Part shown: one piece after another, positions 17,617-56,756 of the stretch
Layout of the letters: the number at the start of each line of letters is the position of its first letter
How positions within the stretch are numbered: the first letter of the stretch is position 1
Assembly: GCF_947648125.1 (NCBI RefSeq)
Contig: NZ_CANSMR010000003.1
Span: 124,001 to 188,000, forward strand
Reading direction: 5' to 3'
DNA length: 64,000 nucleotides
DNA from: an uncultured Bradyrhizobium sp.
GTDB lineage: Bacteria; Pseudomonadota; Alphaproteobacteria; Rhizobiales; Xanthobacteraceae
Program-made: the position numbers and the translations under genes
Notes under the pieces: model-generated
The model's input: only the letters and a program-made list of their open reading frames with translations
The model's database searches: none
What the model was told of the DNA's origin: nothing

Positions 17617-19590
17617 ATGAAGACGAAATCGTTCGCCGAACGCGTGCTGGGCACGACCTCGCTGGTCGCGTTGTCGGCCGCCGCCATGATCGGAGCCCAG
17701 CAACCGGCTGCGGCCCAAACCGGCATCTACGGCGGCGGCAGCACGCTGTCGTCGCTGGCGCTGCGGCAGATCTTCGACTGCTATGCGGGCTCGACGCTGG
17801 CCAATGACGGCCAGGCGTTCTCGCCGAGCTTCTCGACCGCAACCCCGAGCCCGAACCTGCTGCCGACCAGCTGCACCCTCGGCTCGACCTCGGTCGAGGG
17901 ATTGTTCGCCGCCGTCGGCTCCGGCAACGGCCAGCGCGCCTACATCGCCGACGATGCGCGGCAACTGTTCCGCGGCAGCCCGGATTCCGCGCCGGCCGTG
18001 GTGCGCAAGCCTTCGGCCAAGCCGCCGTTCCGCGACACCGCCAATGCGGCCTTCAAGAGCTATCCCTATCCGCGGCTCGACTTCGCCGCCAGCGACGCGC
18101 CGCTCGCCAGCTCGATTTCCAGCCTGACCACCATCTCGTTCAGCAATTTCGTCCCGTCGACCAATTGGCAGAACACGCTGCTGATCGGCGCCCTGAGCAG
18201 CTCGTCCGCGAGCTTCAGCACCTCGGCCGTCGGCGCCCCGATCCAGGTCCCGGCCATGGAAGTCCCGGTTGCGATCGCGGTCAACACCGCGAACTCCACT
18301 TCGGGTGTGACCTGGACCAACCAGTCGGCACTGTCGCCGAACAGCCAGGCCGGCGGAGCGATCCAGCTCACGGCCGCCCAGCTCTGCGCGATCTTCTCGG
18401 CGACCGTGACGGACTGGCATGACACCTCGACGCTGATCCCCGCGCTCGACGCCAACGGCGTGCAGCAATTCCAGCACTTCTACGACGCCAACACCAACGG
18501 CTCGCTGACCCCGGTCGCCTATACCAGCGGCCGGCTGCCGATCAAGGTGGTCTACCGTGCGGATGATGCCGGCGCGAGCTTCATCCTGACCAACTACCTT
18601 GCCAACCTCTGCCCGCTGCTCGATCCGACCGGCACCTACAACTACAAGAAGATCTTCACCGGGGTCGGGGTCGGCGGCAGCGCCACCGCGAACCTGCCGT
18701 CGGGCAAATTCGTCCGCCTGCTCGACAACATCAAGGCGGTGAAGAGCTCCGACCAAAGCGACCCCTACGATGTGGATGACGACGAGGAACGTCCGGATCC
18801 GCACTGGATCAGCGCCTCGGGCAGCAACCACGAAGCGCTGAAGATCGGCACGGACCCGCGCTTCGCCGGCCGCATCGGTTATCTCAGCGCCGACTTCACG
18901 CAGCCCTATGCGCAGGTCGTGACCGAGGAAATCGCCGGGACCACGATCTCCGCGGCGGCTCCGCTGTCGGCCAGCGTCCAGAACGAACGGCAGCGCCTGC
19001 TCGGCGTCTATCATCCGGGCCAGGTCGGCAGCAACGGCAGGGCGCAGAACTTCGTCCCGCCGACGCCGAACAATGCCGAGCTGGCGTTCGCCAACCTGAC
19101 CGCTCCGGACATCAACAGCAGCTATGATGCCTGGAACCTGTATGCGCAGGTCTACCCCGCCGGCACCGTGGTTGGCGGCGTGACCTATGACGGCCTGTCC
19201 GTGATCGGCATCCCGCTGCAGTCGCAGACCGACTATCCGATCACTGGCGCGAGCTTCCTCAACGTGTACAGCTGCTACGGCGACACCGCCGGGACGCGGG
19301 TGCCCGCCGTGAAGAACTGGCTCGCCTGGTTCTTCGGCGGATCGGTCACCGGGCTGCCGAACTACAATCCGGCGGCATCGAACGCCGACAATCCCGGCTA
19401 CGATCCGAATGTCGCCCGGGTCATTCGCAATAACGGCTTCCACGAGCTCGACGGCGTGTGGGCCACCAACATCCTGAATGCCTATCTGATCTCGAGCGCG
19501 GCCGGCGGCCTGCCGAGCGCGATCGCGGCCTACAGCACGTCGGGCACGCAGACCGATGGCTGCACGGGTGTCACCGGCGGCGCGAAGTAA
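17617..19590 (+). CDS. Large PstS-like phosphate-binding-type exoprotein 1
   Basis: 657 residues with a signal peptide (cleavage near AAAQT, residue 34). The type-II substrate-binding fold of PstS/DING proteins shows in GIYGGGSTLSSLALRQIF, the strand RIGYLSADFTQPY and RADDAGASFILTNYL. It is about 300 residues longer than E. coli PstS and has paired cysteines (FDCY, PTSCTLG, ANLCPLLD, YSCYGD, DGCTG) shared with the paralogue at 41470-43401. In the oxyanion loop, PstS R-x-D-G-S-G-T appears as R314-A-D-D-A318-G-A320, so the side chains equivalent to Ser139 and Thr141 of E. coli PstS are lost. No pstCAB genes are nearby, which argues against a classical ABC uptake role and for an exported protein. 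Confidence 0.8.
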   Translation: MKTKSFAERVLGTTSLVALSAAAMIGAQQPAAAQTGIYGGGSTLSSLALRQIFDCYAGSTLANDGQAFSPSFSTATPSPNLLPTSCTLGSTSVEGLFAAVGSGNGQRAYIADDARQLFRGSPDSAPAVVRKPSAKPPFRDTANAAFKSYPYPRLDFAASDAPLASSISSLTTISFSNFVPSTNWQNTLLIGALSSSSASFSTSAVGAPIQVPAMEVPVAIAVNTANSTSGVTWTNQSALSPNSQAGGAIQLTAAQLCAIFSATVTDWHDTSTLIPALDANGVQQFQHFYDANTNGSLTPVAYTSGRLPIKVVYRADDAGASFILTNYLANLCPLLDPTGTYNYKKIFTGVGVGGSATANLPSGKFVRLLDNIKAVKSSDQSDPYDVDDDEERPDPHWISASGSNHEALKIGTDPRFAGRIGYLSADFTQPYAQVVTEEIAGTTISAAAPLSASVQNERQRLLGVYHPGQVGSNGRAQNFVPPTPNNAELAFANLTAPDINSSYDAWNLYAQVYPAGTVVGGVTYDGLSVIGIPLQSQTDYPITGASFLNVYSCYGDTAGTRVPAVKNWLAWFFGGSVTGLPNYNPAASNADNPGYDPNVARVIRNNGFHELDGVWATNILNAYLISSAAGGLPSAIAAYSTSGTQTDGCTGVTGGAK

Positions 19591-19600
19591 CGCCCAATAT

Positions 19601-19636
19601 GAGATCGTGATCCGGGACGATCCGGATCACGGTCTC
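19601..19636 (+). terminator. Strong hairpin after the PstS-like 1 gene
   Basis: GAGATCGTGATCCGG and CCGGATCACGGTCTC pair over 15 positions (one G-U) around a 6-nt loop, 10 bp after the stop codon. There is no T-tract; it probably protects the 3' end or works with the next hairpin. Confidence 0.65.
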
Positions 19637-19650
19637 ACGCAAGACATCAG

Positions 19651-19685
19651 CAGCCGGGCTCTTGATCGGGGCTCGGCTGTTTTCT
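19651..19685 (+). terminator. Rho-independent terminator of the PstS-like 1 gene
   Basis: CAGCCGGGCT pairs with GGCTCGGCTG (10 bp with two G-U pairs) and is followed directly by TTTTCTTG on the plus strand. It overlaps the region just past the convergent FkbM gene stop at 19693. Confidence 0.7.
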
Positions 19686-19692
19686 TGCCGTC

Positions 19693-20601
19693 TCAGCCGG
19701 TTTTGGCGGCAGCGCGGTGCGCTGCGGCGAGCTCGAAATAGCGGCTTCCGGCGTGGGAGACGATCGCATCACGGTTGAGTAGATGCTGGATGCAGATCGC
19801 CGCGAGATCGTAGGAGCCGTAGCAGTGATGGGCGACCAGCGCGAGATGCTTGAGCTGCTCGGAGCTCATCGCATCGGCCTTGGTGAAATCGCGGACATAG
19901 ACGGCGTCGGCCTCGACCAGCTGATTGAACGCCTCATAGGGATTGGTGCCGCGCATCGGCCAAATCATCCGCTTGTCGATCGCCATCAGGGCATGGGGAA
20001 TGAAGCCCTGGCTGCGCAGCTCGAGGTCGATCTCGCCGAACACCGGCTGCTGCTTGTACAGCGGGAGAAACGAGACCTCGGTCTGGATGACGACCGCCTC
20101 CGCGAGCCGCCGCCGCCCATTCTGGAAGATCGCAAGTTCCGAGCCCTGCACGTCGATCTTGAGATAGTCCAGCGCATCGATCTCGCCGATGTCATCGAGC
20201 CTGTGGGTCGCGATCTTGCTGTCGGCGATGATGCGGCCCCACTCGTTGAAGCCCTGAAAGTGCTTCAGCATCAGCGGATCGGGCTCCAGCAGGCTGGTCA
20301 TCCCGGGCGCGGCACAGACGCGAAGGCGGGCCTGCTCGCCGTTGCCAATGACGTAGGGCAAATAGGTTTCGAGCTCGCTCTTGCGGGCATTCAGCTCGGC
20401 CAACGCGCTCGGCTGCGGCTCGAAGCCGAACAGCCGGCACAGCCGCTTCTGCAGCAACGGCACATAGGGCGGGACGTCGATCGGGTTGGCACCGATATCG
20501 ACCACCGCGGTGAGACGTTCGGGTACAAGCAGAGCATTCAGCGGGTCGATCTCGGCAGCTGGGACTGATGGCGCGGGCGCGGTTGACGGGGATGACATCA
20601 T
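19693..20601 (-). CDS. FkbM-family SAM-dependent methyltransferase
   Basis: 302 residues. The SAM-binding start (AVVDIGANPIDVPPY), the acidic loop (FGFEPQPSALAEL) and the family signature DYLKIDVQGSELAIFQNG (near residue 145) identify an FkbM methyltransferase, usually acting on sugar hydroxyls of glycans or secondary metabolites. The C-terminal 100 residues are an extension of unknown role. The ATG pair at 20601/20598 follows GAGG. It lies beside the giant exoprotein gene and near glycosyltransferases, so glycan O-methylation is plausible but unproven. Confidence 0.87.
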   Translation of the reverse strand: MMSSPSTAPAPSVPAAEIDPLNALLVPERLTAVVDIGANPIDVPPYVPLLQKRLCRLFGFEPQPSALAELNARKSELETYLPYVIGNGEQARLRVCAAPGMTSLLEPDPLMLKHFQGFNEWGRIIADSKIATHRLDDIGEIDALDYLKIDVQGSELAIFQNGRRRLAEAVVIQTEVSFLPLYKQQPVFGEIDLELRSQGFIPHALMAIDKRMIWPMRGTNPYEAFNQLVEADAVYVRDFTKADAMSSEQLKHLALVAHHCYGSYDLAAICIQHLLNRDAIVSHAGSRYFELAAAHRAAAKTG

Positions 20602-20664
20602 AGGACCTCACGGAGCGGCGCAAGGCGCGTCGAATCTTGAAGTCGAAGCGCGCAGCTCTATCCC

Positions 20665-20867: not shown

Positions 20868-23800
20868 CTACGGCTGCTGCCCGCGGCGACGGCGCTCGTC
20901 ATCACTGCTGTTCGGCTTCTGGTTATTGCCACTGCCGCCGCTGCCCGGCGTCGCGTCATCGCCACCGCTGCCGCCATAGCCCAGCACCTCGACGATCACG
21001 ACCGACGGCTGGTCGCTGGGCTTGTTCGACGCCGGCTGGCCGGCCTGCTGGGTCGCAGCGGCTGCGTTGTTGTTGACCGCGGACAGCGTGGTGCTCGGCG
21101 TTGGCACGGTGGGGAGCCCTGCCACCGTGGTGGCCTGAACGTTGTAGGCATTGAGCACGACCGGCGCCACCAGCAAGACTTCGTTGCCGGCGCGAACGCC
21201 CGCCGAGCCGAGATCGATGGTGCCGCGCGGCGCAACCAAGACGACGTTGCTCTTGGTCGGATCCTGCCCCGGCAGCGTGACCAGCGCAGCGATGCCGGCG
21301 CCTGTCACCAGCCCCTGCGGGTTGATGTAGCAATAGCCGTCAACGGTGCAGATCTCGCTGAGCGCGGGGCTCGAGACATAGGTCTTCGGTCCCGCGCCGG
21401 CACTGATGTCGCCATTGGCGGTGAACAGGCCGACGTCGCCGCCCTGCTGGGTCATGATGCGGCTCTGGTTGACCAGGATCGAAGCATCGGCGAAGGCCCG
21501 GATGGTGCCGCCGCCGAGGGTCAGGATGCCCTCCTGGTTCGGTGTCAGCGTGTCGAGCGAGGAGTGGCCGACGGTGATGCCGCCGCCCGGCCCGACGATG
21601 TTGATGTCGCCGCCCATCTGGGTCTCGAGCACGGAGGCCGCGACGTTGAACCTGCCGGTCGCGATCTTCGGCGCGGCCTTGCCGTCGACGCTCAGGCTGT
21701 TGTCGGTATAGCCGTAGCCGGCCGGGAACAGCGTGGAGATCGCGGTATAGGCGCGAGCGTATTGACCGAAATAGGGGCTCGACGGATTCTTGAAGTCCTT
21801 GCCCACCTGGATCAGGAAGTCGAGGAAGGCGCGGTTGACGAGAAGCTGCTGCCGCGCCTGCGACAGACCCTGGAAGGTGGCCCAGGCCTGATCGCGCGGC
21901 TGGCCGAGGATAGCGGCGATATCGGTGAGGAAATCGATGCCGCCGGTGCCGGCATGCGCCGGATCGACGTAATCGGCGATCGCCGCGGCATAGTTGATGC
22001 CGGGCTTCACGCCGAACAGCAGATCGAGCTCGGCGCCCTTGGACGGCAAATACGGCTTGAGAGCATTCGACGGCAGACTGGTGAATGCGCCGGCGACCGC
22101 GCTGCCGTTGCCGATCGTCGCGATGCCACGTGTCGGCGCGTCGGAAGCCGAGAACGGCCCCAGATCATGCCCGGCCTGCAGCACGAAGGTGCTGGGGCCG
22201 TAGAGAAGATAGGAGCCGCCGACCAGATCGTTGCCGGCAACGATACTGGTGATGTCGGTCGCGTTGTTGTTCTGGCCGACGAAATTGAAGCTATTGTTGG
22301 CCAACGGCGTGCCGTTGCTGGTCGTCGAGACGCCGCCACCCGGAGCTATGCCCGCGTAGATGTTGTTGCCAGCCTCGATCCGCGCCGGCTTGATCAGCGT
22401 CAGGCTGGCGCCAAAATTGCTCACGGGATCGACGGCATAGATGTCCTTGCCGGCGGCGATGACGATGGGCACGGGATCGTTCGCATGCAGTGCCTGAGTG
22501 AGGGTGGCCGGTGGCAGCCCGAGTGGGCTGATGACGTTGGTGAAGTCGGATTGACTGATGCTTGCGCCGACAAACTGTGTGATGCTGGTGCTGAGGTCCG
22601 GCATCACAAGGCCGACCTCAAGGCTAATGGTTCCGGCTGCGAGGAGGTTGACGGTGCCGCCGTTGCTTGGCAGCACGTTACTCATGTCCGTCTTGCTCAG
22701 GGTCAGATTTCCGCCAAGCGCCGCCAGGTCGAACGTCGCGGGAAGCAGCAGCCCGACTATCGACGCGTTCGCATTTCCTCCGAGGGTGATGTTTGCGCTG
22801 GTGTTGTGCACAAAAAGCCCCGGGATCGAGTTCACTGAAACAGTCGGGCCTGTCACGTCACCGGCGATGCTCGTCAGCGAAATGCCGCTGCCCGGGCCGT
22901 AGCTGGTGAAATAATTGCTCCAGGCACCGTTGCCAGGGCTGTTGGCATCAGGCGATGCGCCAGGCACATATAGGTCAGCCCTCACCTGCACCCCGGCGTT
23001 GAGCGGCAACGCCGTGGGATCGTAGACATTGCCGAGCGTCACCGAACCACGCGCGCCGAGCGTGATGAAGCCATCCTGTACTGCGAGCAGCAAGGGCAGC
23101 GCATAGGTGCCGACGACGGAGCTCCCGTTATTCGTGACCCCAATCGTTGGTAAGCCCTGGTTGACCGGATTGCTGCTGGTGGCCTGGACCGAACCGCCCA
23201 CCCGGATCAGGCCGGCGCCGCGGCCGACCAGGAAATCGCTGCTCAGGAGGTTGCCGCCGGCGGTCACGCTGAGATTGCCGCCGCCGTAATAGGTGACCTT
23301 GGGCGGATTGGCCGACGTGAACCCGGCGCCGCCGCCGCGCGTCGCCGGCCCCGCCGCGCCGACATCGTTGTTGTCGGCGCCCGCCGACAGCGTGATGTTG
23401 CCGCCGCCGAGCGCGCCAAACCCCTGGAAGAAGGTGGCGTAGTTGACCCAGGCCGCGGTCTGGCAAGCAATCGAACCCGCAGCCGCGCAAGCCGCGAACG
23501 GCGTCGACGTGCCATTTGAGAGGCCGTAGTGAACATACCAATCACTCCACATCTGGCCGATCGAGGCACCGGCAACGCCGGTCTGGCTGCCATCTGCATC
23601 GATCGGCATCTCGATGCCGATGATCGATCCGCCGGCGGTCACGGTGACCGCGCCGCCGCCGGTAGCCCAGGCCGGTGCGCTGACGAGCCCGTTCGGTTGG
23701 ACGGTGTAGAGCGCAGGCAAGGTCGGCGCATTGAAATCCGCCGGCGTGGCGGTGGCCGCGCCAGCGGTGTAGACCGCACCCGGAGCCACCTGGTCGCGCA

Positions 23801-26800
23801 GTTCGACATTGCCGGCCGCCGCGATCGTGATCGAGCCGGTGCCGGTGCGCACCAGAGTCGGGATGTTGATCGTCGTCGCGCCGACACCGGGTACTGACAG
23901 CTGGTTCAGATAAGAGCTGTGGCCGTCGATGGTTACGCTGCCCGTGACCGTCGACGGCTGCGACGACAAGGAAACCACCGCGTTGGGATCGACCGGCGGC
24001 GCGTTCGCAACAGTAAAGTCCGCGCCGGCGACAATGTCGTAGGAGAAACTGCCCCTGCCGCTCACCGCGGCAGACATCAGTTGCGACGCAGAAGTAGTAT
24101 TGTAGACGATGCTGAGGGTGCCGCCGACTGGGTTGTAGACCGCTGGGTTGTTGGCAATCCGATCGGCAGGAGGAACCTGATCCGTCGACGCAAGGTAGGT
24201 GCCCTGCACGGCGGTGTAGGCTGGCGGCGGCGCTGGCGGCGTCACCGCGATCGCGGCAAGGACACCGTGTGCGAAGTCAAGCCCAGCCGCATAGTCCAGG
24301 CCGACCGGCAGGCTCCCCGTGTTGAGAAAATTTTTCAGTCTAGGCTTACCACTGTTCACCAAGTTGGTATTGATCACACTGAGGAAGTAAGCCGTCCACT
24401 TCGTTGCATAGTCTTGCGCTCCGGTGACCACGTTGCCGGTCCCTGAGTACAGCAACCTGCCAATGCCGGTGGTCAGATTGTAGTACTGTGTCCTTGTGGT
24501 GGGCGCTACCGGGATCACGTTGATTGACGGATTCAGTAGACCGCTAACGCTTCTTGCCTGAGCGTAAGCCACGAAATCAGCATAGGACAGCACGATCCCT
24601 CCGCGCGCTGAAACGCCCGTCGATGGGTTGATCCCGTTGACGTTGACCCCGATCAACTCCGTCTCATAGGCGCGGAACATCCGCAAATACTGGGAATAGT
24701 ACAGATTGTATTGATCGATCACCGCCGGATCGCTGGAGGAAATGACGACCGGCTGTGCCAGCTTGAACTGCAGCGCGAGCGCGTTATAGGCAGCATCCGA
24801 GAGCCCGAAGAATGCGGCGCTCGGTGAGGCCGTGGGCGATGAGGGGCCCGACCACGCGCCATTGGTCTTCACCAGATAGTCGACGATCCCGCTTGAATTG
24901 TAGACCAGATTGTTGCCGTCCGGGAACATGCCGAGATAGGCTTGATAGAGGCTCGAATTGAGCTCACTCGCATAGAGCCCGGCTGCGTCTCCGCCGCGGG
25001 GCGCGTAGTTGACGAAGAAGCCGTCGCTCACCGTCGCGTTGATGTTGACGTTGTTCCTTGCTTGCAGGACCAGCGACCCGGGCTCGCCGCCGGTCGCGGT
25101 GCGATACACCAGCGAGACGTGGCCGGATGCATCGACACTGCCTGCGCCCAGATTCCAGTTGCTGGCGACCGTGATGTTGCCCTTGTTGATGTCGAGGCTC
25201 GGATTGATCAGATCGATCTCGGGCCGCACGTGCATATTGGCGAAGCTCGCGCCCCCTCCCGCCGGCGTCACGGCAAGGTGCTGGACGAAGCTCGCCAGCG
25301 TGTTCTGATAGAAGCCGACGTGATCGGCATTCGGCGCCGTGACAATGAATATCGTACCGGTCGCCAGCGGCGCCTGCGGCGTCGGCGCCACGATCGCATT
25401 GCCGTTCTGATCGGTCGTGTTGCCGTGCTGATCGGTGCCCGGCAACGGATTGCCGGCGGCATCGAACCATCCGGCTGGATCGATGATGCCGTCGAAATGC
25501 TGCGCGCCAGTCGAGCGGTCGGTGGTGCTCCACACCGCGTAGGGGTTGAGCACGACGCCCTTGCCGATCGGATTGCCGCCGCCATCGACCACGCCGATGA
25601 CGCTGCCGCGGAAATCGACCTTGACGGTGTTGTCGGTGAGGATCGGCGCGCGGAGGATGACCGCCCCGCCGGAATTGTTGATGTTCGCCCCACCCGGCCC
25701 GCCACTGACGTCGAACTTGGCGCCTGCGGCGACGCTGATAGCGCCCGAGGTCGACATGTTCTGGTAGCCATAGGTGGCGTTGACGGCGCCGTTTGCATCG
25801 GGTGTGCCCGTGGTGCCCAGCGTGATGGTGCCGCCGGTCTGCACCAGGCTGGCGGCGGCGTAGGCCGGATCGGAAGGATCGCCTGCGGCGTAGGATGCCT
25901 TGAGGACTGCACTGCCGCCGATGCTGACGCCGCCGGTGGTCACGCCGCCCGCGGTGATGCCAGCGCCATAAAGCGAGATCTGGCCGCCGCTCGGCCCGCT
26001 CGCGTCGATGGTGCCGTTGACGACCACGCTGCCATTGTTGGCCACCAGCAGCACCTTGCCGGAGTTGAGCGTCTGGCCGGCCTCGATGCGGATGTCGCCA
26101 TTGCCGAGCCGCACCGAGAAGCCGCCGCTGAATGCTGTGAGCGGCAGGCCGGCCGCTCCGCCGATGCTGTTGGCCTGCAGCGTAAAGCTGCCGCCGAGGT
26201 CCTTGAACGCCGCGCTGCCATCGAGCATTCCGTCGAGCGTTGCGGCGTTCGCAGCCAGGATCGACAGCGACCCGGCAAAACCGCGGCCTGCCCCGGCCAC
26301 GCTGACGGTGGTGCCCTGCCCGACGATCACATTGCCGGTCGTCGACGCGAGTTGCACATTGCCGCCCGGCGCGTCCTGGACCACGTCGAGGATCGTGATG
26401 CGCGAGCCGGACGCATCGATCAGGGCGCCGCTACCGAGCACAATATCGCCGGCGGTCGCAGTCAGGCTGACCTTGCCGGACAGCGCCTGGATCGTCGCGC
26501 TGTCGGTGATCGACCCGCCCGTGATGGCGAGAACGCCGCCGATATTGCTGGCGACACTTGCGGGCTTGGTACCCGCGGCGGTGACCAGGCTGACATTTCC
26601 CAGCGTGCTCAGCGATTGCGTCGCGCCGCTATTGACCACGATCGCCGGCGCGGACAGCACCATGTTCGCGGCCGCAGCGCCGCCGCCCGAGAACGTCACC
26701 GTCGGCAGGCTCGAATAGCCGGTGCCGGCATTGATCAGCGTCACACCGGTGACGGCGCCGCCGGACACGGTGGCAGTCGCCGTCGTGCCGGATCCGCTGA

Positions 26801-34196: not shown

Positions 34197-34487
34197 GCGG
34201 GCCTTCCAATGCAGCAGGCGATGCGAACGATCGTGACGCGACAAGGCACCGGCCAGCCTGCAATCAGTTGGCCCGATGCCGACAACTCGATGAAAGGCAC
34301 GCAACTCAACCGGCGCAGCCGCCCCCGAGCGGACACGCCCGACAGTTCGGGACGCCTCTCCTGTTCCTAAGACAGTTTGAAAGGGGCTAACGCGAAGCGA
34401 TTTCGCAAAAAAGTTTTAACGCTGCGGTGGAACTCAACCTCGGCGCGAACCGGCGCATTCACCCGGCCCGCCAAAAACAACGCCGCG
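34197..34487. other. Short leader region of the giant exoprotein gene
   Basis: About 290 bp between the GspC/N-like gene and the exoprotein start. The RBS GGAAGG sits just before ATG 34196. No clear terminator hairpin with a T-tract on the minus strand is visible after the GspC/N-like stop, so co-transcription of the two genes is possible. Confidence 0.45.
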
Positions 34488-39928: not shown

Positions 39929-39942
39929 GACCGAGGCCGCCG

Positions 39943-43401: not shown

Positions 43402-43771
43402 TGCGCTGTTCCTGTGGGGTTGATCACCACCGGCACATCGTCATCGCGTCGTCATCAGAGCGCAAAGTAATCTTCAAACAAGATGAAGTTTATTTTGCCA
43501 CTCAACCAAGATTTGTTAGAACAAATCTACGATCGAGAAAGTATCTCTGCCGTCGACGTCATGTCTCCGTCGCCGATGATTGACTTCACGTCTGATAGAC
43601 AATTCGACGATCGGCTTCGCGCAGGGATTATTTTCGATCAGTGTCCGAAAAACATCTTGGCAATACCACATCGGGTGCTCTATGGACTCCCCCGTCCGGC
43701 GGATCGCCGTCTGATCGCAAACTATCTACAGAGCAATCTCTGCGGGCTTTCATTCAAGCGAGGCCTCCCAC
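43402..43771. other. Divergent promoter region between the PstS-like 2 and SPINDLY-like genes
   Basis: About 370 bp, noticeably AT-richer than its surroundings (43460-43660), consistent with promoters in both directions. AGGA before 43401 is the RBS of the PstS-like gene. No gene is apparent; a direct repeat TCGTCAT-CGCG-TCGTCAT lies at 43438-43455. Confidence 0.5.
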
Positions 43772-46006: not shown

Positions 46007-46018
46007 AAAACAAAGAAA

Positions 46019-48611: not shown

Positions 48612-48841
48612 CATGGGTTGCGTTGCCGGTGATCGCGTTGTTGCTCGCGTCGCAATCGCAGCCGTGACGCGCGCAGCAATTGTCCCGGACACAAATCAAT
48701 TCTGCATCATCGACTGTGGCACGGCATGTCGCGACGTGAGCACTCGTTGTGGTTTCATTTCCATGTCACCAACCACAGATAGAAATGTCGCGACCGACTT
48801 GAAATGTGACGATTGCCGCGGTTGGGGATGGGGCCCCTGCA

Positions 48842-49474
48842 ATGAGCGACACCAATCGAACGGCGTTGCTCGCGCTCCTCGTCACAAGCTACGACGATCT
48901 CAAACAACGTTTGACGCGCCGGACCGGGTCGGCGGATCTCGCCGACGAGGCATTGCAGGATACGTTTCTGCGCTTGAGCAAGGCGGACGGCATCGGGCCC
49001 GTTCGCGATTTGCCGGCATATCTGTTCCGCGTGGCGATGAGCGCCATCAGCAACCGGCGCGTTGCCGAACGACGCCGTCGCACGGTGCCGCAAGCGGATA
49101 CGCTGTTCGATCTACCGGACGAAACTCCCGGCCCGGACCGGATTATCGAGGCGCGATCCGAGATCGGTGCGCTCCGGCGCGCCATCCAGGAGTTACCGAC
49201 CCGTCGCCGAGAGATCTTCATGGCGATATGTGTTGAAGAAGTACCGTTGCAGCAAGTCGCAAAACGGTTCGGCATCAGCGTGCGCACGGTCCAGGTCGAG
49301 ATCAAGCAGGCGCTGGTGCATTGCGCAGTGTGCATCGATCGGAACGCGCAGATGCCACGGGCTGCGTTTCGGCGCCGAATTCCATTCACCGAGCGGGAGC
49401 GCGCGGCGCTGCATCCAACCGGCGATGGCGATACGGTGCTCGGCCGGCGATTGCCGTTGGGCGGCAGCGGGTGA
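48842..49474 (+). CDS. ECF-type RNA polymerase sigma factor
   Basis: 210 residues. Region 2 (LADEALQDTFLRLSKADGIG, DLPAYLFRVAMSAISNRRVAERRRR) and region 4 (LPTRRREIFMAICVEEVPLQQVAKRFGISVRTVQ) are those of FecI-like group-4 sigma factors. It has a 35-residue C-terminal tail. No anti-sigma factor or FecR/FecA-type partner lies next to it. Its position just before gspE suggests that it may drive the secretion genes, in parallel to VreI next to the hxc genes of P. aeruginosa. Confidence 0.88.
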   Translation: MSDTNRTALLALLVTSYDDLKQRLTRRTGSADLADEALQDTFLRLSKADGIGPVRDLPAYLFRVAMSAISNRRVAERRRRTVPQADTLFDLPDETPGPDRIIEARSEIGALRRAIQELPTRRREIFMAICVEEVPLQQVAKRFGISVRTVQVEIKQALVHCAVCIDRNAQMPRAAFRRRIPFTERERAALHPTGDGDTVLGRRLPLGGSG

Positions 49475-49638: not shown

Positions 49639-51354
49639 ATGCTAGCGCGCGAAAGCGATGGGCCTGCGAGACCGGCGGTGCCGCCGATCGACTTCATGAC
49701 ATATCTCGCCGGCAAGGGCGCGTTGCGCGACAGCCAGAAGGATGAAGGGGCTGCTCGGCCGCGTCAGGCCGACGGATCGGCTGGCCATGTCGACTGGAGC
49801 GCCGTCACCAAGCTGACACCCTCGGCGCTGGCTGACGAACTGGCCAGCTTTTACAGATGCGACCGGGTTCGTCGCGACGATCTGGTCGACGGGCGCTTTG
49901 CCGGCGGCGAGATGTCGACCCGGTTCCTCAAGGAGGAGCGCCTGTTTCCCTACGAGGGCGCGGCCGGCACGTTACGTCTCGCGCTGGCCTCCCCGATCGA
50001 CGATGAAACGTTGCGCGCGGTCGAACTCATGCTGCGCCGGCCAGTGGCGCTTGCGGCAGCGACCGCCGACGATCTGGAAGCCGCATTGTCGCTACGGCTC
50101 GAGCCCGATCAGCCAAGCGACGCCGCGCAGCCCGGGACCGCCGGCGGCGAGGACGATCTCGACAATCTGCGCGACCTCGCGCGCGGTGCGCCGGTCGTGC
50201 GAGCGCTTGATGACCTGCTCCGCCTAGCCGTCGAGCAGCGAGCGACCGATCTGCACATCGAGCCCGCCGGCAATACGCTGCAGGTTCGGCTGCGCGTCGA
50301 CGGCATGCTGAAGAACGTGCCGGCACCGCCGATGACGATGGCCAAGGGCATCCTGTCACGGCTCAAGATCATGGCCGGGCTTAACATCACCGAGCGCCGG
50401 CTGGCGCAGGACGGGCGCGCCCACATCCTGGTCGGCGGCAACGAGATCGACCTGCGGGTCGCCACCATGCCGACGATGCACGGCGAATGCGCGGTCATCC
50501 GGCTGTTGCGCAAGGGAGCCGGCCTGGTCTCGCTCGACCAGATCGGGCTCAGCGCGCATCACGAGGCGGTTCTACGCAAGGCGTTGCTTGCACCATACGG
50601 AATGGTCATCGTCACCGGCCCGACCGGATCCGGCAAGACCACGACGCTCGCAGCATCGCTTGCGGTGATCAATGAACCCACCCGCAAGATCCTGACGATC
50701 GAGGACCCCGTCGAGTATCAGATACCCGGTATCACCCAGACCCAGGTGCATCCAGGCATCGGGCTCACCTTCGCATCCGCGCTGCGCTCCTTCATGCGGC
50801 TCGACCCCGACGTCATCATGGTTGGCGAGATGCGCGATTCCGAGACGGCCCATATCGGCGTCCACGCCGCGCTGACCGGCCATCTGGTGCTGACGACGCT
50901 GCACACCAACACCGCCGCGGGCGCCGTCACGCGCCTGATCGACATGGGAATCGAGAGCTTCCTCTTGGCATCGTGCGCGCGGGTGATCGCCGCGCAGCGG
51001 CTGGTCCGGATCCTGTGCGACCACTGCAAGGAACGTCACACCCTGTCGGCGGCAGATATCGCGGCGGACGAACGTTATGCGGCACTCGGCATCGAGGCTG
51101 GCGAGGTGGTCTGCCGGCCCAAGGGCTGCGATTGGTGCAGCAACACAGGCTTCCGCGGACGCAAGGGCGTGTTCGAGATCATGGAGATCGGCGCGACGCT
51201 GCGACGGTCGATCGGCCCGAAAACCGATGCCTCCGACCTTGAAGCCGTGGCCCGGCGCGCCGGCATGACGTCGATGACGGAGGACGGTGTCGCAAAATTA
51301 CGCGCCGGGCAGACCACGCTCGATGAGATATTCCGACTGACCATGAGCCTGTAG
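49639..51354 (+). CDS. gspE: Type II secretion ATPase GspE
   Basis: 571 residues. An N-terminal GspL-binding region is followed by the secretion ATPase core: DLHIEPAGNTLQVRLRVDG, Walker A GPTGSGKTTT (Lys333), Asp box ILTIEDPVEYQIPGI, Walker B SFMRLDPDVIMVGEMRDSET and His box GHLVLTTLHTNTA. The metal-binding tetracysteine is present as CDHCKER and CDWCSNTG. It is the cytoplasmic motor of pseudopilus assembly. It starts the unbroken gspEFHIJKLM run. Confidence 0.96.
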   Translation: MLARESDGPARPAVPPIDFMTYLAGKGALRDSQKDEGAARPRQADGSAGHVDWSAVTKLTPSALADELASFYRCDRVRRDDLVDGRFAGGEMSTRFLKEERLFPYEGAAGTLRLALASPIDDETLRAVELMLRRPVALAAATADDLEAALSLRLEPDQPSDAAQPGTAGGEDDLDNLRDLARGAPVVRALDDLLRLAVEQRATDLHIEPAGNTLQVRLRVDGMLKNVPAPPMTMAKGILSRLKIMAGLNITERRLAQDGRAHILVGGNEIDLRVATMPTMHGECAVIRLLRKGAGLVSLDQIGLSAHHEAVLRKALLAPYGMVIVTGPTGSGKTTTLAASLAVINEPTRKILTIEDPVEYQIPGITQTQVHPGIGLTFASALRSFMRLDPDVIMVGEMRDSETAHIGVHAALTGHLVLTTLHTNTAAGAVTRLIDMGIESFLLASCARVIAAQRLVRILCDHCKERHTLSAADIAADERYAALGIEAGEVVCRPKGCDWCSNTGFRGRKGVFEIMEIGATLRRSIGPKTDASDLEAVARRAGMTSMTEDGVAKLRAGQTTLDEIFRLTMSL

Positions 51355-51361
51355 GACGGTC

Positions 51362-52567
51362 ATGCCGCACTACCGCTATCGCGCGTTGACCAAGGCCGGC
51401 GAGATCATTCTCGGCGACCTCGACGCGCCGTCGCGCGAGGAAGTGCTGCGGCGGATCGAGTATCTCGGCCACCTGCCGGTCGAGGCCGAGATCGCGGGCC
51501 GCAGTGCGCTGCGCGCCAGTATTTCGAGCGGGAGCCTGCCCCGGCAGCGCGAACTGACCACGTTCCTTCGCCTGCTGGCGTTGCTGCTTCGCTCGGGACT
51601 GACGCTGGAAGCTGCGCTCCAGACGCTGGAGGAAGACACCAACAAGGCGGTAGCCCGCTTTGCCGGCAGGCTGCGCTCCGCGGTCTCCGGCGGCGACGGC
51701 TTCGCCGAGGCGCTCGAGCGCCACAACCAGATCATCGAGCCAATCTACATCGCGATGGTGCGCGCCGGCGAAGCCTCCGGCAAGCTGGAAGTCGTGCTGC
51801 GGGCGATCGTCGAGGACCGGACGCGGCGCGAGCAGCTGTCGCAACGGATCTCGTCGGCGGTCCGCTATCCGATGTTCCTGGTCGGGTCGGCGCTCGTCAT
51901 CCTGTTCTTCTTCCTGCTCTATGTCGTGCCGCAGTTCGAGTCGGTGTTCACGGAACTGCGCGGACGTCTCAATTCCGGCGCGGCCTTTGCGCTCACGATG
52001 TCCACCTGGCTGCGCGCCCATCTCGACGCGTTCCTTGGCGGCTGCGGCGCGGTGCTGCTGCTCGGCTGGCTGATCCTGCGCCAGCCGGCCGCGCGCGCAT
52101 CGCTGATGGCAGTGCTCGCGACCATTCCCGGCATCTCCGGCCCGATGCACGATCGCCGCACCGCCCGTTTCATCGGCACGCTGGGGCTGCTGGTGGAGAA
52201 CGGGGTCGCATTGCCGACCGCGCTGAAGATCCTGCGCGATATCATGACCGAACCCCGCTACGCTGCGGCCGTCGAGCAGGTGCACGAGCAGGTGCGCAAC
52301 GGCCGCCGTTTCATCGAGGCGTTGTCCGAGAGCGACCTGGTGCCACCGCTCGCAGTCCGCATGCTCCGGGTCGGTGATGAGACCGGAGATTTGTCGGCCA
52401 TCGCGCAGCACGCCGCCGATCTCTATGAGCAGCGGCTCGCCATCGGCCTCGACCGGCTGATGGGTGCGATCGGACCGATTACCATCATCGCCGTCAGCAT
52501 CGGTATCGGAACGCTGGTGGTATCGATCATGAGTGCGCTGCTCAGCATCACCGAGCTTGCGATGTAG
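51362..52567 (+). CDS. gspF: Type II secretion inner-membrane platform protein GspF
   Basis: 401 residues with two GspF domains and three membrane segments (about 170-190, 220-240, 370-395). Signatures: MPHYRYRALTKAGE start, LTTFLRLLALLLRSGLTLEAAL, AMVRAGEASGKLEVVL and the repeat RMLRVGDETGDLSAIAQHAA. It lies 7 bp after gspE. Confidence 0.96.
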   Translation: MPHYRYRALTKAGEIILGDLDAPSREEVLRRIEYLGHLPVEAEIAGRSALRASISSGSLPRQRELTTFLRLLALLLRSGLTLEAALQTLEEDTNKAVARFAGRLRSAVSGGDGFAEALERHNQIIEPIYIAMVRAGEASGKLEVVLRAIVEDRTRREQLSQRISSAVRYPMFLVGSALVILFFFLLYVVPQFESVFTELRGRLNSGAAFALTMSTWLRAHLDAFLGGCGAVLLLGWLILRQPAARASLMAVLATIPGISGPMHDRRTARFIGTLGLLVENGVALPTALKILRDIMTEPRYAAAVEQVHEQVRNGRRFIEALSESDLVPPLAVRMLRVGDETGDLSAIAQHAADLYEQRLAIGLDRLMGAIGPITIIAVSIGIGTLVVSIMSALLSITELAM

Positions 52568-52576
52568 GGATGGCCG

Positions 52577-53026
52577 ATGACGCGCGCAACAATCACCGGT
52601 TCGACGGCGGGCTCCACCCTGATCGAGATGATGGCGGTGATGCTGATCATCGCGATGCTGGCATCGCTGGTGGTGGCGATGGTTCCGGGCACCGGGCGCG
52701 GCAACCTGAAGGCGTTGACGCTGCAGACCGCGGCACTGCTGCGACGCGAGCGGCTTGCGGCAATTCTCACCGGGCAGAGCCGCCGCGTGTCGCTCGACGG
52801 AAATGCACGGACGATCGTCGGGCAGGCGGGCACGATCGCGATCCCTCGCGACGTCCGGGTCGATGTGATCGGCGTGAACGAGCTCTGGTCGGGACGACAG
52901 GCGGTCGTGCGGTTCGAGCCGGACGGCGCTTCGACCGGATCCGTGCTGAAATTCTCGTGGGAGAATGTGCGCTATGAGGTGGACGTCAACTGGTATAATG
53001 GCCGCGTTGCGGTCGATCTGCCCTGA
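52577..53026 (+). CDS. gspH: Type II secretion minor pseudopilin GspH
   Basis: 149 residues. The prepilin motif reads AG/STLIEMMAVMLIIAMLASLVV: Glu at +5 is present but the first mature residue is Ser instead of the usual Phe or Met. The C-terminal beta domain (LWSGRQAVVRFEPDGASTG) fits GspH. It starts 9 bp after gspF and its end overlaps gspI by 29 bp. Confidence 0.88.
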   Translation: MTRATITGSTAGSTLIEMMAVMLIIAMLASLVVAMVPGTGRGNLKALTLQTAALLRRERLAAILTGQSRRVSLDGNARTIVGQAGTIAIPRDVRVDVIGVNELWSGRQAVVRFEPDGASTGSVLKFSWENVRYEVDVNWYNGRVAVDLP

Positions 53027-53465
53027 ACCTCGCGACGCACGTGCCGGGTTCACCCTGATCGAGGCGCTGGTGGCATTGGCGTTGCTTCTGGCGTTCGTGT
53101 CGGTGCTTGGTCCGCATCTGTTTTACGCGCGCCGGATCGCGGACCGGATCGACGGCCGTATTGCAGCGCAGGTCCTGTTGCGCACGATCCTGGATTCGCC
53201 GGTCGACCGCTCGATCCTCGCCAATGGAACGCGTGACGGCGAGACCGCCGGTCTGCGCTGGTCCGTCACATCGGAGCCCATGTTCGTCGATGCCATGGCC
53301 GTGCGGCGGGACGCGCCGGCCGCAGCCGCGCCGGACAAGAAGGATGAGCCCGGCACCAAGCGTCCGAACTGGATCGCCTACCATCTCGTAGCGACAGTGT
53401 CGTGGGCGCCCGGACGGATGGTCAGCGCGGATACGCTGCGGCTCGGATTGGGAGCCGACGAATGA
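52998..53465 (+). CDS. gspI: Type II secretion minor pseudopilin GspI
   Basis: 155 residues from ATG 52998, which overlaps the end of gspH. Prepilin motif ARAG/FTLIEALVALALLLAFVSVLG, then the GspI-type beta sheet with RTILDSPVDRS. An insertion of charged residues (AAPDKKDEPGTKR) is near the C-terminal part. It forms the pseudopilus tip complex with J and K. Confidence 0.9.
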   Translation: MAALRSICPEPRDARAGFTLIEALVALALLLAFVSVLGPHLFYARRIADRIDGRIAAQVLLRTILDSPVDRSILANGTRDGETAGLRWSVTSEPMFVDAMAVRRDAPAAAAPDKKDEPGTKRPNWIAYHLVATVSWAPGRMVSADTLRLGLGADE

Positions 53466-54199
53466 GCGCAGCATGTCGAAAAGGGCTCCGCGCGGCGTCA
53501 GGCTTCACGCTGATCGAGGTGCTGGCCGCGCTCGCGATCGGGTCTGCCGTGATCGCGGCAACTGCGGTTCTGATCAACAACGTTGCGCTGAATTTCGATC
53601 GCAGGACAGGCCTGGTGGGAAAGACGGATCAGTTGCTGCTCGCGGTCGACCGCCTCGCGGCGGACGTCGGGTCCGCCCGGCAAGTAAAACAAGGTGACGG
53701 TGCGGATGCAGCCGCCGCTTTCAACGGCGATGCGAGCCAGATGACGTTCGTCACCGGAAGCAGTGCGGGTGGCGGCCGGGCTGAGGAAGTGGTCAGCCTG
53801 CAGGTCGAGGAGACTGATGGCGTCAACCATCTGGTCCGGCGCCGTGCCCGATGGCAAGGACAACGCACGCCGTTCGCGAGCCTCGCGCTGCAGGACCCCG
53901 TCGGGGTGATCGAAGGCCAGGTCGACATCGCGTTTGCATTCGGAAGTCCTGGTCCGGACGGCACGTTGTCATGGAGCACGACATGGATCGGGCAACCGCT
54001 TTTGCCGCGCCTTGTGCGGCTGACCGTTCGAGACCGCGCCAGCGGGGCCGAACTGTTGCCCGGCGTGCAGTTCACGCTGCGCGCCGACGCGCCGATCGGC
54101 TGTGCCCAGCCCGGAGCCAACGCCGACTGCGTCACCGGCAAGGCCGCATCGCCGAAGGAGACACAGGCCAAGGACCCGCCGCCGGGAGCACGCCGATGA
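53462..54199 (+). CDS. gspJ: Type II secretion minor pseudopilin GspJ
   Basis: 245 residues; ATGA overlap with gspI. Prepilin motif ASG/FTLIEVLAALAIGSAVIAAT, followed by GspJ features (LLLAVDRLAADVGSARQV, MTFVTGSSAGGG). The C-terminal tail (about 220-245) is a Pro/Lys-rich extension with a Cys pair (GCAQPGANADC). Confidence 0.92.
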   Translation: MSAACRKGLRAASGFTLIEVLAALAIGSAVIAATAVLINNVALNFDRRTGLVGKTDQLLLAVDRLAADVGSARQVKQGDGADAAAAFNGDASQMTFVTGSSAGGGRAEEVVSLQVEETDGVNHLVRRRARWQGQRTPFASLALQDPVGVIEGQVDIAFAFGSPGPDGTLSWSTTWIGQPLLPRLVRLTVRDRASGAELLPGVQFTLRADAPIGCAQPGANADCVTGKAASPKETQAKDPPPGARR

Positions 54200-55134
54200 G
54201 CAGGCCTCACACCAAACGCGGCATGGTCCTGCTCGCCGTGCTGTGGGCGATCGCGCTATGCGCCGCCCTCGCCATGGCAACCTCGGCGACGTTTCGCAGC
54301 CTCGCCGGCATCGTTCGGATCGACCGGGAGCGTGTACAAGCCGACGGACTCCTGACCGCGGGTCTCGAGGCCGCTGCCGGTATCGTCGCGGCGCTGCGAG
54401 ACACCCCGCCCGCCGAGCGCAGTTCTACGCTGACCTTCGCGACCGGATCCGTCCAGCTGACGATCAGCGATGAGGGCGGCCGCATCGACATCGGAAAGGC
54501 GCCGGTCGAACTGCTCGCCTCACTGCTCCGCTATGTCGGCGCCGAGGATGACGATGCCGCCATCGTCGCACAACGCATCGTCGCGCTTCGCGACATCGCT
54601 GGACAGGCGCGACCGAACGGTGCGCAGCCGCCGGCGAACAATGCGGCGAAGCCATCGCCGGCGGAGAAGCCTGACCAGCCGGCGGCAGCGTCCACGCCGT
54701 TCACTGACATCGGGCAGATCGCCGATATTCCCGGCATGCAGCCGCAATGGATGGCGGCGATGGCGCCCTTGATCACCGTCTTCGGCAGCGGCGGCGTCAA
54801 TCCGCTCACCGCGCCGGTCGCGGTGCTGCGGGCGTTGCCGTCGTTCGATGCGGAGCATCTTGACGCCTTCCTCGAAATGCGGAGCTCGCCGTTCGTCGAT
54901 CCCGAGCGCCTCTCCTTCCTGCTCGGACCGGCGCAAAAATACCTGAAGGTTCAGCAGACGCGTGTGGTCGCGGTAGACCTCGTCGCCGGCACGACCGGCG
55001 GCTACACCGCCGCGGCCAGAGCGTTCATCGTGCTGCTCCCGGACGACAAGCAACCGTATCGGGTTCTGGCCTGGACACCGATCTCGCGGTTCGCAAGGAC
55101 AGGCGTCGTCGCATCGCTGGAGGCACGCCGATGA
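54196..55134 (+). CDS. gspK: Type II secretion minor pseudopilin GspK
   Basis: 312 residues; ATGA overlap with gspJ. Start KRG/MVLLAVLWAIALCAALAM lacks Glu at +5, as is characteristic of GspK, the cap of the pseudopilus tip. The SAM-like helical domain shows FTDIGQIADIPGM and VNPLTAPVAVLRALPSFDAEHLDAFL. A Pro/Ala-rich insertion (about 140-165) is species-specific looking. Confidence 0.92.
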   Translation: MSRPHTKRGMVLLAVLWAIALCAALAMATSATFRSLAGIVRIDRERVQADGLLTAGLEAAAGIVAALRDTPPAERSSTLTFATGSVQLTISDEGGRIDIGKAPVELLASLLRYVGAEDDDAAIVAQRIVALRDIAGQARPNGAQPPANNAAKPSPAEKPDQPAAASTPFTDIGQIADIPGMQPQWMAAMAPLITVFGSGGVNPLTAPVAVLRALPSFDAEHLDAFLEMRSSPFVDPERLSFLLGPAQKYLKVQQTRVVAVDLVAGTTGGYTAAARAFIVLLPDDKQPYRVLAWTPISRFARTGVVASLEARR

Positions 55135-56180
55135 GCATCGAAATGATCATGCGGCACTGGATCGATATCCTCGCCCGTCTGTGGCTCGGCTGGCAGGAGC
55201 GGCGCCGCGCCAGGCACTGGTTGAAGGTGACGAGGGTCGGCAACGACTGGGTGGTTGAAGACGCGACGAAATCGGCGAGATCGACCTTCGCGGCGGGGGC
55301 CGCGGACAATGCGCTACCTGATGAGATCATCCGCGCCGCACAGAAATCCTTCGTCATTCTCGAGCTTCCTACCCCCGCCATCGTTTCGCGTGCGATGAAT
55401 GTTCCGGCGCAGGCGCGAGACCTGCTGGCCGGCATCGTGCGCAATCAGATCGAGCGGCTGTTTCCGTGGCGGGCGAGCCAGGCCGCCTACGGCATCAATG
55501 TGGCAACCAGCGCGGATGCAAACATCCTCAATGTGCAGATCCTCGCCGCCTCGCGCGCGACACTCGATGACGCGTGCGGCCAGCTCGGCGCGTTGGGCCT
55601 GCGGGTCGACCGGGTCGTTGCGGGCAAGGGCCCCGGTGACGGCTCGGTCACGCTGTGGTCCCGCCTCACTGAGGCGTCCGACAGCAGTCTCGCGCGGACG
55701 CGCCGAATGGTCGTCGGCCTGATGGTCGGAGCGGTCTGCCTGACGCTGGTGGTGAATGTCTGGGCTTTCATGAGTGCGGCATCCGCGGACAGCGAGAGCG
55801 ACGAGATCGGATCGCGCCTTGCGACGTTGCAGCGCCAGATCAGGGGCAGTTCGTCGAAAGAGGCGATCGCCTCGCTGGCGCCGGCTGAACGGGCGCGCGC
55901 CCTGAAGGAGACATCGCTGGTCGCGGTGGTCGTCGTCGAAGCACTGTCCCGCGCCCTCCCCGACACGTCCTATCTTACGGAACTGAATATGGACGGTTCG
56001 ACGCTGCGCATCGTCGGCCTCGCTGGCGATGCGCCGTCGCTGATCGCGCCGCTCGAACGCTCCGGGCATTTCAAGGATGTGCATTTCTTTGCTCCGACAA
56101 CGCGCAATGCCGATGGCGGACGGTTCGTGTTTCACATCGAAGCCCGCGTCGAGCCGCATGTCCGGATCGATGGAGAGTGA
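55131..56180 (+). CDS. gspL: Type II secretion inner-membrane protein GspL
   Basis: 349 residues; ATGA overlap with gspK. A cytoplasmic actin-like part is shorter than in enteric GspL (about 190 residues; LELPTPAIVSRAMNVP, NQIERLFPWRASQ), then one membrane segment (RMVVGLMVGAVCLTLVVNVWAF) and a PilN/GspL periplasmic domain (LPDTSYLTELNMDGSTLRIVG). It anchors GspE to the platform. Confidence 0.88.
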   Translation: MSIEMIMRHWIDILARLWLGWQERRRARHWLKVTRVGNDWVVEDATKSARSTFAAGAADNALPDEIIRAAQKSFVILELPTPAIVSRAMNVPAQARDLLAGIVRNQIERLFPWRASQAAYGINVATSADANILNVQILAASRATLDDACGQLGALGLRVDRVVAGKGPGDGSVTLWSRLTEASDSSLARTRRMVVGLMVGAVCLTLVVNVWAFMSAASADSESDEIGSRLATLQRQIRGSSSKEAIASLAPAERARALKETSLVAVVVVEALSRALPDTSYLTELNMDGSTLRIVGLAGDAPSLIAPLERSGHFKDVHFFAPTTRNADGGRFVFHIEARVEPHVRIDGE

Positions 56181-56183
56181 ATC

Positions 56184-56756
56184 GTGCTGAAGATGAAGCT
56201 GAACCTCAACTTCGACATCAACCGCGAGCAAGTTTTCGCGGCCGGCGGATTCTGCGCGCTGCTGCTGATCTGCGCGATGGCGATTGCGGGCGCGCTGCAG
56301 ACACGTTCCAGCGCGGCGCAGCACCTGGCCGAACAGCGCGACGAGCTGGCGGCGCTCGAGGCGCGCTCGCGCCCCGCCGCCAACAAGCGCGCGCAGACCC
56401 AGCGCCTCGCCGCGCCGGCGGCGGCTTTCCTGGATGCGCCGACCACCGGCCTCGCCGCCGCGCAGCTCCAGGCTTACCTGTCCGAACTGGTGCTGAGCCA
56501 GCACGCGGTCCTGGTCTCGTCCGGGATACCCGCCGATCGCGACGACAAGAACGACGCCATCAGGCTCCAGATCTCCCTCAATGCCACGCTGGCGGCATTG
56601 CAGACCTTGCTCTACCGGCTTGAAAGCGGCGCGCCCTATGTGTTCGTCGACGCATTGCTGGTGCAGCCGGGCGGATCCACCGAGCGAACTGCCGGCGATC
56701 CGGTCTTGAAGGTCACTCTGACGGTGCACGCCTTCTGGCGCCGCCGGACGGCTTGA
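56184..56756 (+). CDS. gspM: Type II secretion inner-membrane protein GspM
   Basis: 190 residues. One N-terminal membrane segment (VFAAGGFCALLLICAMAIAGAL), a coiled region (AEQRDELAALEARSR) and a periplasmic ferredoxin-like domain ending AFWRRRTA. GTG 56184 follows GGAGAG; ATG 56193 is possible. It closes the gspE-M operon, 3 bp after gspL. Confidence 0.85.
   Translation: MLKMKLNLNFDINREQVFAAGGFCALLLICAMAIAGALQTRSSAAQHLAEQRDELAALEARSRPAANKRAQTQRLAAPAAAFLDAPTTGLAAAQLQAYLSELVLSQHAVLVSSGIPADRDDKNDAIRLQISLNATLAALQTLLYRLESGAPYVFVDALLVQPGGSTERTAGDPVLKVTLTVHAFWRRRTA

Follow-up and report, generated by a model that had tools for sequence, protein, structure and literature searches.

A split Hxc/PUMA3-type secretion island in Bradyrhizobium, with sequence pointing to a possible PhoB-to-ECF cascade over three exported-protein genes

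The 64,000-nt stretch analyzed here (the window; contig C3:124001-188000 of genome G000) belongs to an uncultured Bradyrhizobium sp. with an 8.57-Mb genome in 71 contigs, and contains a secretion island that runs from a DING-like gene starting at 17617 to the end of gspM at 56756. The island combines the genes of a type II secretion system (T2SS), among which GspD, E, F, G, the pseudopilins, K, L and M were all recognized, with two large exported PstS/DING-like proteins, a giant exoprotein of the TpsA type, an extracytoplasmic function (ECF) sigma factor and two tetratricopeptide repeat (TPR) glycosyltransferases. This gene list had been drawn up in a first-pass annotation from the letters of the sequence and is supported by Pfam and NCBIfam matches.

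The two PstS-like proteins, pstSL1 (657 aa; 17617..19590, + strand) and pstSL2 (643 aa; 41470..43401, − strand), match PF12849 at E 2.1e-11 and E 1.4e-12, and a profile of nine homologues is nearest to DING-type structures in the PDB. Specifically, its top seven matches are 4m1v, 2v3q, 3w9v, 5jk4, 5j1d, 4f18 and 2q9t (E 8.9e-19 to 1.2e-13), with PstS structures appearing only at 2e-6; two of the seven carry the name DING in the search output, and we take the other five to be DING-type phosphate-binding proteins as well. The alignment contains invariant VGSGNG, SD and R-x-D columns, which presumably contribute to the phosphate site. Neither protein has the N-terminal DINGGG or the size of ~38–40 kDa by which DING proteins are recognized: the N-termini read GIYGGGSTL and GIYAGGSTL and the proteins have 643–657 aa with signal peptide, and because of these differences in N-terminus and size we refer to them as ‘DING-like’. 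They had been noted as lacking pstCAB, and indeed no pstCAB domain occurs in the 40 open reading frames (ORFs) scanned, which are part of the window's ORFs; three PBP_like_2 matches elsewhere in the genome are stronger than the island pair. Strong DING-like homologues are found in 5 of 296 surveyed genomes, this one included (the survey gave 8/296, of which three at E 2e-4 to 6e-4 were left out of the strong count), and further homologues with 26–32% identity by blastp occur outside that list of eight in G220, G259 and G414.

The exoprotein, previously put at ~4.4 kaa, is a TpsA of 4,442 aa if counted from the probable ATG (20868..34196, −), with a two-partner secretion (TPS) domain and a C-terminal DUF3739. 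The genome has five DUF3739 matches and a single detected TpsB locus (PF03865), which lies on contig C7, so both partners of two-partner secretion are present. With no tpsB adjacent, TpsA might instead be exported by the T2SS, an idea raised by the position of DUF3739 genes beside two T2SS loci (tpsA adjoins gspC, and another DUF3739 gene adjoins a second T2SS on contig C46) and by the excess of DUF3739 matches over TpsB. We consider this very improbable and abandoned it as the leading idea: among the 296 genomes, TpsB occurs in all 30 that are positive for DUF3739 versus 84 of the 266 others (Fisher p 2.6e-14, a test that ignores genome size and kinship); the two lie within 50 kb of each other in at least 22 of the 30 (a lower bound, counted among the TpsB matches listed), compared with 6/30 for DUF3739 and GspG; and in G190, G240 and Methylosinus a single stretch carries both tpsA and tpsB. 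The occurrence and proximity counts make TpsB, not the T2SS, the likely exporter of TpsA, and the TpsB encoded on C7 would be the one that serves the TpsA of the window. An order-wide DUF3739 survey (3/150 genomes) was too sparse for use. The T2SS on C46 is complete, and PF04185 phosphoesterase, MauG-like and imelysin genes lie near it; in G220, a C46-type T2SS, a TpsA, TpsB-ExbB-ExbD and a 30% DING-like protein occur together.

The TpsB locus on C7 encodes, by Pfam, an STN plus TonB protein (VreA-like), TonB, an ECF factor (ECF7), FecR, TpsB (POTRA_2 plus ShlB), a DUF2341 plus ExbB protein, ExbD, an unknown protein, TonB, Porin_5, a protein without clear family that we term coiled-coil, and a PpiC isomerase; no FecR match was seen among the window ORFs scanned. 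The same gene types make up the Hxc-LapA/LapB-PdtA/PdtB-PUMA3 system of P. aeruginosa, namely a T2SS, DING-like cargo, a giant TpsA, TpsB with ExbB/ExbD/TonB, a VreA-like protein, ECF, FecR and a downstream PpiC (PMC2729926). The PUMA3-regulated genes there are said to include vreA, vreI, vreR, the hxc genes, PA0688, tpsA, tpsB, exbB2, exbD2, PA0696-PA0698 and the PpiC-type PA0699, with PA0695 named as a tonB homologue (PMC2729926), and LapA/LapB are termed DING-like in PMC2225411. The window, with T2SS, DING-like cargo and giant TpsA in one locus, is the secretion-and-cargo half of an Hxc/PUMA3-type island, and its PUMA3-like half, with TpsB, ExbB, ExbD, TonB and VreA-like/ECF/FecR, is on C7 outside the window, making this a split member of the type. 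The first-pass annotation had likened the window to the Pseudomonas hxc-vre-pdt locus, and the resemblance is closer than it could tell, because the genome also contains a matching VreA-like/TonB/ECF/FecR/TpsB/ExbB/ExbD/TonB/porin/PpiC half, which in relatives is joined to the first. The comparison with P. aeruginosa is one of gene types, and the island differs in being on two contigs, in having two ECF genes, in the 643–657 aa of its DING-like proteins, in a phosphatase-like ORF that overlaps gspD and in carrying Pho-box-like repeats at the ECF genes, not at the cargo.

The synteny that the first-pass annotation had proposed to look for is conserved in related genomes. In G190 and G240 both halves are contiguous in one stretch of ~55–58 kb with the order UXS-gspM-L-K-J-I-H-F-E-ecf-GT9-GT41-pstSL2-pstSL1-tpsA-gspC-apL-gspD-clpL, although our own gene caller called no ECF7 in the G240 stretch. 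Bradyrhizobium sp. STM 3843 (G357, treated as one genome with L199 and L204, as were G170 and L200) has the T2SS/cargo half followed by FecR and ECF7 on one contig and TpsB-ExbB-ExbD on another, and parts of the arrangement appear in eight Bradyrhizobium records (L192-L199), with TpsA within reach in seven. Genes in fetched loci were called with our own hexamer caller, so starts may be wrong (G357 tpsA, G190 pstSL1). Outside the genus, plasmid pMSC49a of Methylosinus sp. C49 (L272; NCBI family Methylocystaceae), predicted to be non-mobilizable, carries in a row of ~42 kb as annotated T2SS, ECF, two TPR genes, PstS-like, TpsA, PpiC, porin, TonB, ExbD, ExbB, TpsB, FecR, ECF and VreA-like genes; its record lists no AP-like (alkaline phosphatase-like), SppA-like or UDP-xylose-synthase gene in the island. 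Burkholderia arboris has three TPR-GT9-like genes, a 4,250-aa TpsA, two DING-like proteins (448 and 445 aa), a VreA-like protein, ECF, FecR and TpsB-ExbB-ExbD-TonB-porin-PpiC, with a TpsB 44% identical to that of this genome and with F- and G-like genes alone recognized from its T2SS in the comparison. Since homologues of TpsA, TpsB, ExbB, ExbD, VreA, ECF and FecR also stand together in B. arboris, an ‘independent’ rhizobial version is not supported, a judgment made without a tree; nor are the glycosyltransferases a rhizobial addition, as the three TPR-GT9-like genes of B. arboris precede tpsA.

This recurrence indicates that the gene set is more than chance. An ordinary T2SS with unrelated neighbours, brought together by accident or local rearrangement, could draw on the finding that the block pstSL2-glycosyltransferases-ecf-gspE-M lies on the opposite side of tpsA in the window compared with G190 and G240, and that gspG and fkbM are extra in the window; we find that explanation hardly credible, because G190, G240 and STM 3843 carry the same set, seven further named Bradyrhizobium loci have parts of it, Methylosinus has most of it, and three of the genes have a promoter-like element in common.

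That element, CTKCGC-N16-YTGTCT, is common to the upstream alignments of pstSL1, pstSL2 and tpsA. The window contains exactly three copies, all exact, one each 5′ of pstSL1 (CTGCGC-N16-TTGTCT, 17371..17398, +), tpsA (CTTCGC-N16-CTGTCT, 34370..34397, −) and pstSL2 (CTGCGC-N16-TTGTCT, 43597..43624, −), compared with 0.07 expected and with 0/100 shuffles reaching three; leaders of 173–218 nt separate them from the called starts at 17617, 34196 and 43401. An extended form ending in WW, searched across four whole genomes, matched exactly at 12 sites, and 11 of these lie at the three gene types: G000 has it at 3/3 genes and nowhere else, G190 at 3/3, G240 at three plus one other site and G357 at two. 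Eighty named loci (1.36 Mb) hold eight exact copies (tpsA accounts for five, pstSL2 for two, and the remaining copy is not at a cargo gene), and among the seven tpsA promoters in reach (one being that of G357 itself) five carry the exact element and one carries it with one mismatch; Methylosinus pstSL has it with one mismatch, 227 nt before the start. Only exact copies were used for counting, because extended matches with up to one mismatch were no more frequent than matches to a reversed-pattern control in 4/4 genomes (38 vs 56, 32 vs 55, 22 vs 56 and 41 vs 45). We regard the element as a candidate ECF promoter, with the ECF factor that reads it likewise putative.

The ECF factor of the window (ecf; 48806..49474, +; PF08281 E 2.5e-14) probably starts at ATG 48842, as judged by alignment of starts, and is preceded by a Pho-box-like repeat (48752..48769, +) that has four mismatches to the consensus in this genome and lies in a block kept in relatives. 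The scoring matrix was built from 11 intergenic sites in other parts of the genome, out of 34 matches; four of these had no locus, and 19 were set aside because they fell within genes or had no gene in a suitable position. A perfect Pho box precedes a PstS-type gene on C7. In a comparison of 29 orthologue families, aligned scores averaged 13.4 for ecf, 10.9 for ECF7 and 8.2 for the AP-like gene, with the other 26 at or below 1.5, so that ecf and ECF7 come first and second, and 0/1000 column shuffles reach either score. Like Pho boxes, the repeats at the ECF genes have a period of 11 bp. A further repeat 5′ of the AP-like/gspD operon (35228..35245, +), compared across 11 loci, is weaker than those at the ECF genes, its score being reached by 2/500 column shuffles. 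As the ECF sites were first noticed in these same genomes, Methylosinus provides the fair test: its two ECF genes take the top two places among 13 scored (15.9 and 16.4, values that 0.37% and 0.18% of 544 background upstream sequences reach), followed by the PstS-like gene (11.9) and gspE (10.7). The phosphate link proposed in the first-pass annotation thus gains sequence support at the ECF genes but little at the cargo genes. We infer PhoB control of the island, and these sequence patterns suggest that lack of phosphate may switch on the two DING-like proteins and TpsA together; PhoB here would act one step upstream, at the ECF genes.

Several observations weigh against this reading. The idea that the cargo genes carry canonical Pho boxes had to be rejected: the consensus with up to three mismatches occurs at no island gene, and its two matches in the window, both outside the island, compare with 3.56 expected. 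Single-site scores in this genome are modest (ecf 11.2 and the C7 ECF gene 10.4, with ~4–5% of background reaching 9.9–10.9), some relatives score low (G357 ECF7 7.6, G395 ecf 8.8), and the top of 21 scored genes in B. arboris, the VreA-like gene, has a weak 9.1 that lies inside the upper tenth of the background. Many of the other 27 families in the comparison lie inside operons, so that their upstream sequence is coding, and pstSL2 was dropped from the 29-family test by the identity filter. In P. aeruginosa, moreover, a pho box lies within the pdtA promoter itself, where PhoB and VreI act together (PMC4971064), which is not so here. As for the promoter-like element, it was defined on the same promoters and is present there by construction; an extra exact copy in G240 is intergenic, 46 nt 5′ of an unrelated 404-aa ORF, and another exact copy, at L197:15861-15888 near the position of pstSL2 in the window, has no cargo gene 3′ of it. 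G357 tpsA carries a variant and not the exact element, Methylosinus tpsA has none 5′ of its annotated start, and the G395 stretch, which does not include the tpsA start, has no exact copy. Finally, DING-like protein 1 has AGA and protein 2 has SGT at the presumed phosphate-site motif, and both proteins are only putative T2SS cargo. The missing canonical boxes and modest single-site scores would suit a Hxc/PUMA3 relative with a different cue, in which ECF/FecR/VreA responds to some other signal, from the surface or from plants, and the role of the DING-like proteins is a different one, and hxcR of P. fluorescens is indeed described as induced by plants and not by phosphate (PMC2225411). We think such a cue possible, if rather unlikely, in view of the DING relationship of the cargo and of the footprinted Pho-box-like repeats that precede both ECF genes and recur in Methylosinus.

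The AP-like ORF (apL; 35356..37503, +) overlaps gspD by 11 nt and had been called an exported alkaline-phosphatase-superfamily enzyme. It has no Pfam or NCBIfam match at E 0.01, and a profile of eight homologues matches ENPP4 in the PDB at E 0.0032; homologues occur in 10 of the 296 genomes, one of them weak (E 4e-4). Among the best 80 of 260 relatives, drawn from several phyla in a scan of named genomes, the closest genes are those of B. altum (94%) and Bradyrhizobium sp. NAS96.2 (90%). In 61 distant homologues the D57, Thr, DE[NG]DH and SDHTD-type motifs, whose residues we take from AP-superfamily enzymes to be metal ligands, are near-constant, with DENDH or DEGDH in 58/61, and the ENPP4 alignment around the Thr supports these presumed roles. 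DE[NG]DH is absent from all 11 island copies, which have TGNDR or similar instead, and the Thr is also lost in three (G190, G240 and STM 3843); DE[NG]DH is lost as well in B. macuxiense (L257), G226 and G259, and the other listed rows keep it. B. macuxiense and G226 have the AP-like gene beside a similar gspD without TpsA, and copies adjoining C46-type T2SSs (G283, L204 and L238) keep the motifs. An active phosphatase was therefore rejected: the set of metal-ligand motifs is incomplete, and with the loss of a motif that 58/61 distant homologues keep, the protein is probably inactive. We would expect it to have a non-enzymatic role tied to the secretin.

The secretin GspD itself (37493..39928, +) matches PF00263 at E 6.6e-40 and TIGR02517 above cut-off (416 bits), and is followed by an SppA/ClpP-like gene (clpL; 39925..40680, +; TIGR00706 E 3.5e-7, below cut-off) that adjoins gspD in relatives. 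The major pseudopilin GspG (40819..41313, −; PF08334 E 1e-38; TIGR01710 above cut-off) was not found in the G190 or G240 stretch. The genes gspE, F, H, I, J, K, L and M (49639..56756, +) form a run homologous to one in relatives, within which GspM is supported by NF040576 above cut-off and the others (49639-56180) by Pfam domains or sub-cut-off NCBIfam matches plus position, with GspI and GspJ assigned from prepilin motifs, gene order and homology to relatives. A short GspC-like protein (34488..35084, −) matches NF041515 weakly (E 2.7e-9, below cut-off) and has a homologue between tpsA and apL in relatives. No prepilin peptidase GspO was seen among the window ORFs scanned, the rest of the genome not being searched for it; a GspO-like ORF, recognized by eye, lies between gspE and ecf in the G190 and G240 islands.

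The first glycosyltransferase, a TPR plus GT41 protein (43772..45958, +; PF13844 E 3.1e-33), is nearest to Arabidopsis SPINDLY (7y4i, E 3.9e-95) and has 83–97% identity in G190, G240, G357, L192 and L198; the second is a TPR protein with a GT9-like segment (46140..48611, +; PF01075 E 2.5e-5). The cytoplasmic glycosyltransferase HMW1C modifies the TpsA HMW1 (PMC5422565), and the island enzymes might similarly glycosylate TpsA or the DING-like proteins. Convergent with gspM is a gene for a UDP-glucuronate decarboxylase (UDP-xylose synthase)-like protein (56797..57744, −; 4gll, E 5.1e-124), which is 90% identical and adjoins gspM in G190 and G240, lies near a DING-like gene in G395, and is probably part of the island too. 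An FkbM methyltransferase gene (19693..20601, −; PF05050 E 5.1e-18) has no homologue that we could see between pstSL1/pstSL2 and tpsA in G190, G240 or G357. Rfam gave no matches in the window at gathering thresholds, and fixI/fixH-like genes (heavy-metal P-type ATPase and FixH) lie at its right edge (61021-63719).

Taken together, we favour, with a probability of roughly 0.64, an Hxc/PUMA3-type island in which PhoB would act through an ECF factor on three cargo genes, the DING-like proteins leaving by the T2SS and TpsA by the C7-encoded TpsB. Phosphate starvation would turn on, via PhoB, the two ECF genes in the window and on C7, and perhaps the AP-like/gspD operon, and an ECF factor would then read one dedicated promoter type at pstSL1, pstSL2 and tpsA. 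Signal peptides would take the DING-like proteins across the inner membrane, from where the island T2SS would carry them outward, TpsA would exit through TpsB, and the ExbB/ExbD/TonB partners may energize or sense the process; outside the cell, the DING-like proteins would bind or handle phosphate near the surface TpsA. We infer these secretion routes, the phosphate binding and the contact between TpsA and the DING-like proteins. The whole might even form one surface device, a joint T2SS-TPS machine, in which a three-target ECF factor directs a giant TPS fibre that displays two T2SS-delivered DING-like binders, SPINDLY-like and TPR-GT9 enzymes fed by the UDP-xylose synthase glycosylate the cargos before they are exported, and the secretin uses the inactive phosphatase-like protein in cargo recognition or assembly; this we offer as speculation and hold to be improbable.

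The cargo reading of the DING-like proteins is supported by the psp-hxc locus of P. fluorescens SBW25, where a DING gene is flanked by hxc genes and by an ORF of 4,083 aa that encodes a haemagglutination domain, and where Psp is phosphate-induced and mainly Hxc-secreted; that locus differs in its 40-kDa DING protein, in hxcR not being phosphate-induced and in that the excerpted text makes no mention of glycosyltransferases (PMC2225411). R. palustris has four PUMA3 copies, of which three have tpsA after them and the fourth has tpsB with exbBD, and a PUMA3 homologue of B. vietnamiensis comes with some hxc-like genes and tpsA; for R. palustris the excerpted source mentions neither T2SS nor DING (PMC2729926). 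The T2SS-ElpS pair of Caulobacter crescentus is another alphaproteobacterial case of a T2SS adjoining a phosphate-starvation protein, differing in that ElpS is a lipoprotein which needs the T2SS for release, not translocation, and in that TpsA/PUMA3 genes go unmentioned in the portion cited; phosphate-induced T2SS-linked proteins therefore need not be direct T2SS cargo (PMC2996285). Apart from the R. palustris remark, we saw no description of a rhizobial or related version among the papers listed by searches of the open PMC library.

We thus describe the island as an alphaproteobacterial variant of the Hxc/PUMA3 type that is split in this genome; its sequence features point to a PhoB-to-ECF-to-three-genes cascade. 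Its distribution suggests that the Pseudomonas phosphate-starvation arrangement is a module common to soil- and root-associated alphaproteobacteria, in one case carried on a plasmid, and the analysis predicts that one ECF factor has three target genes, that both ECF genes have PhoB sites and that the secretin is tied to a probable pseudoenzyme. What DING proteins do outside the cell is considered ill defined (PMC2225411), and a legume-symbiont genus with a co-regulated DING-like pair would make a workable model for it.

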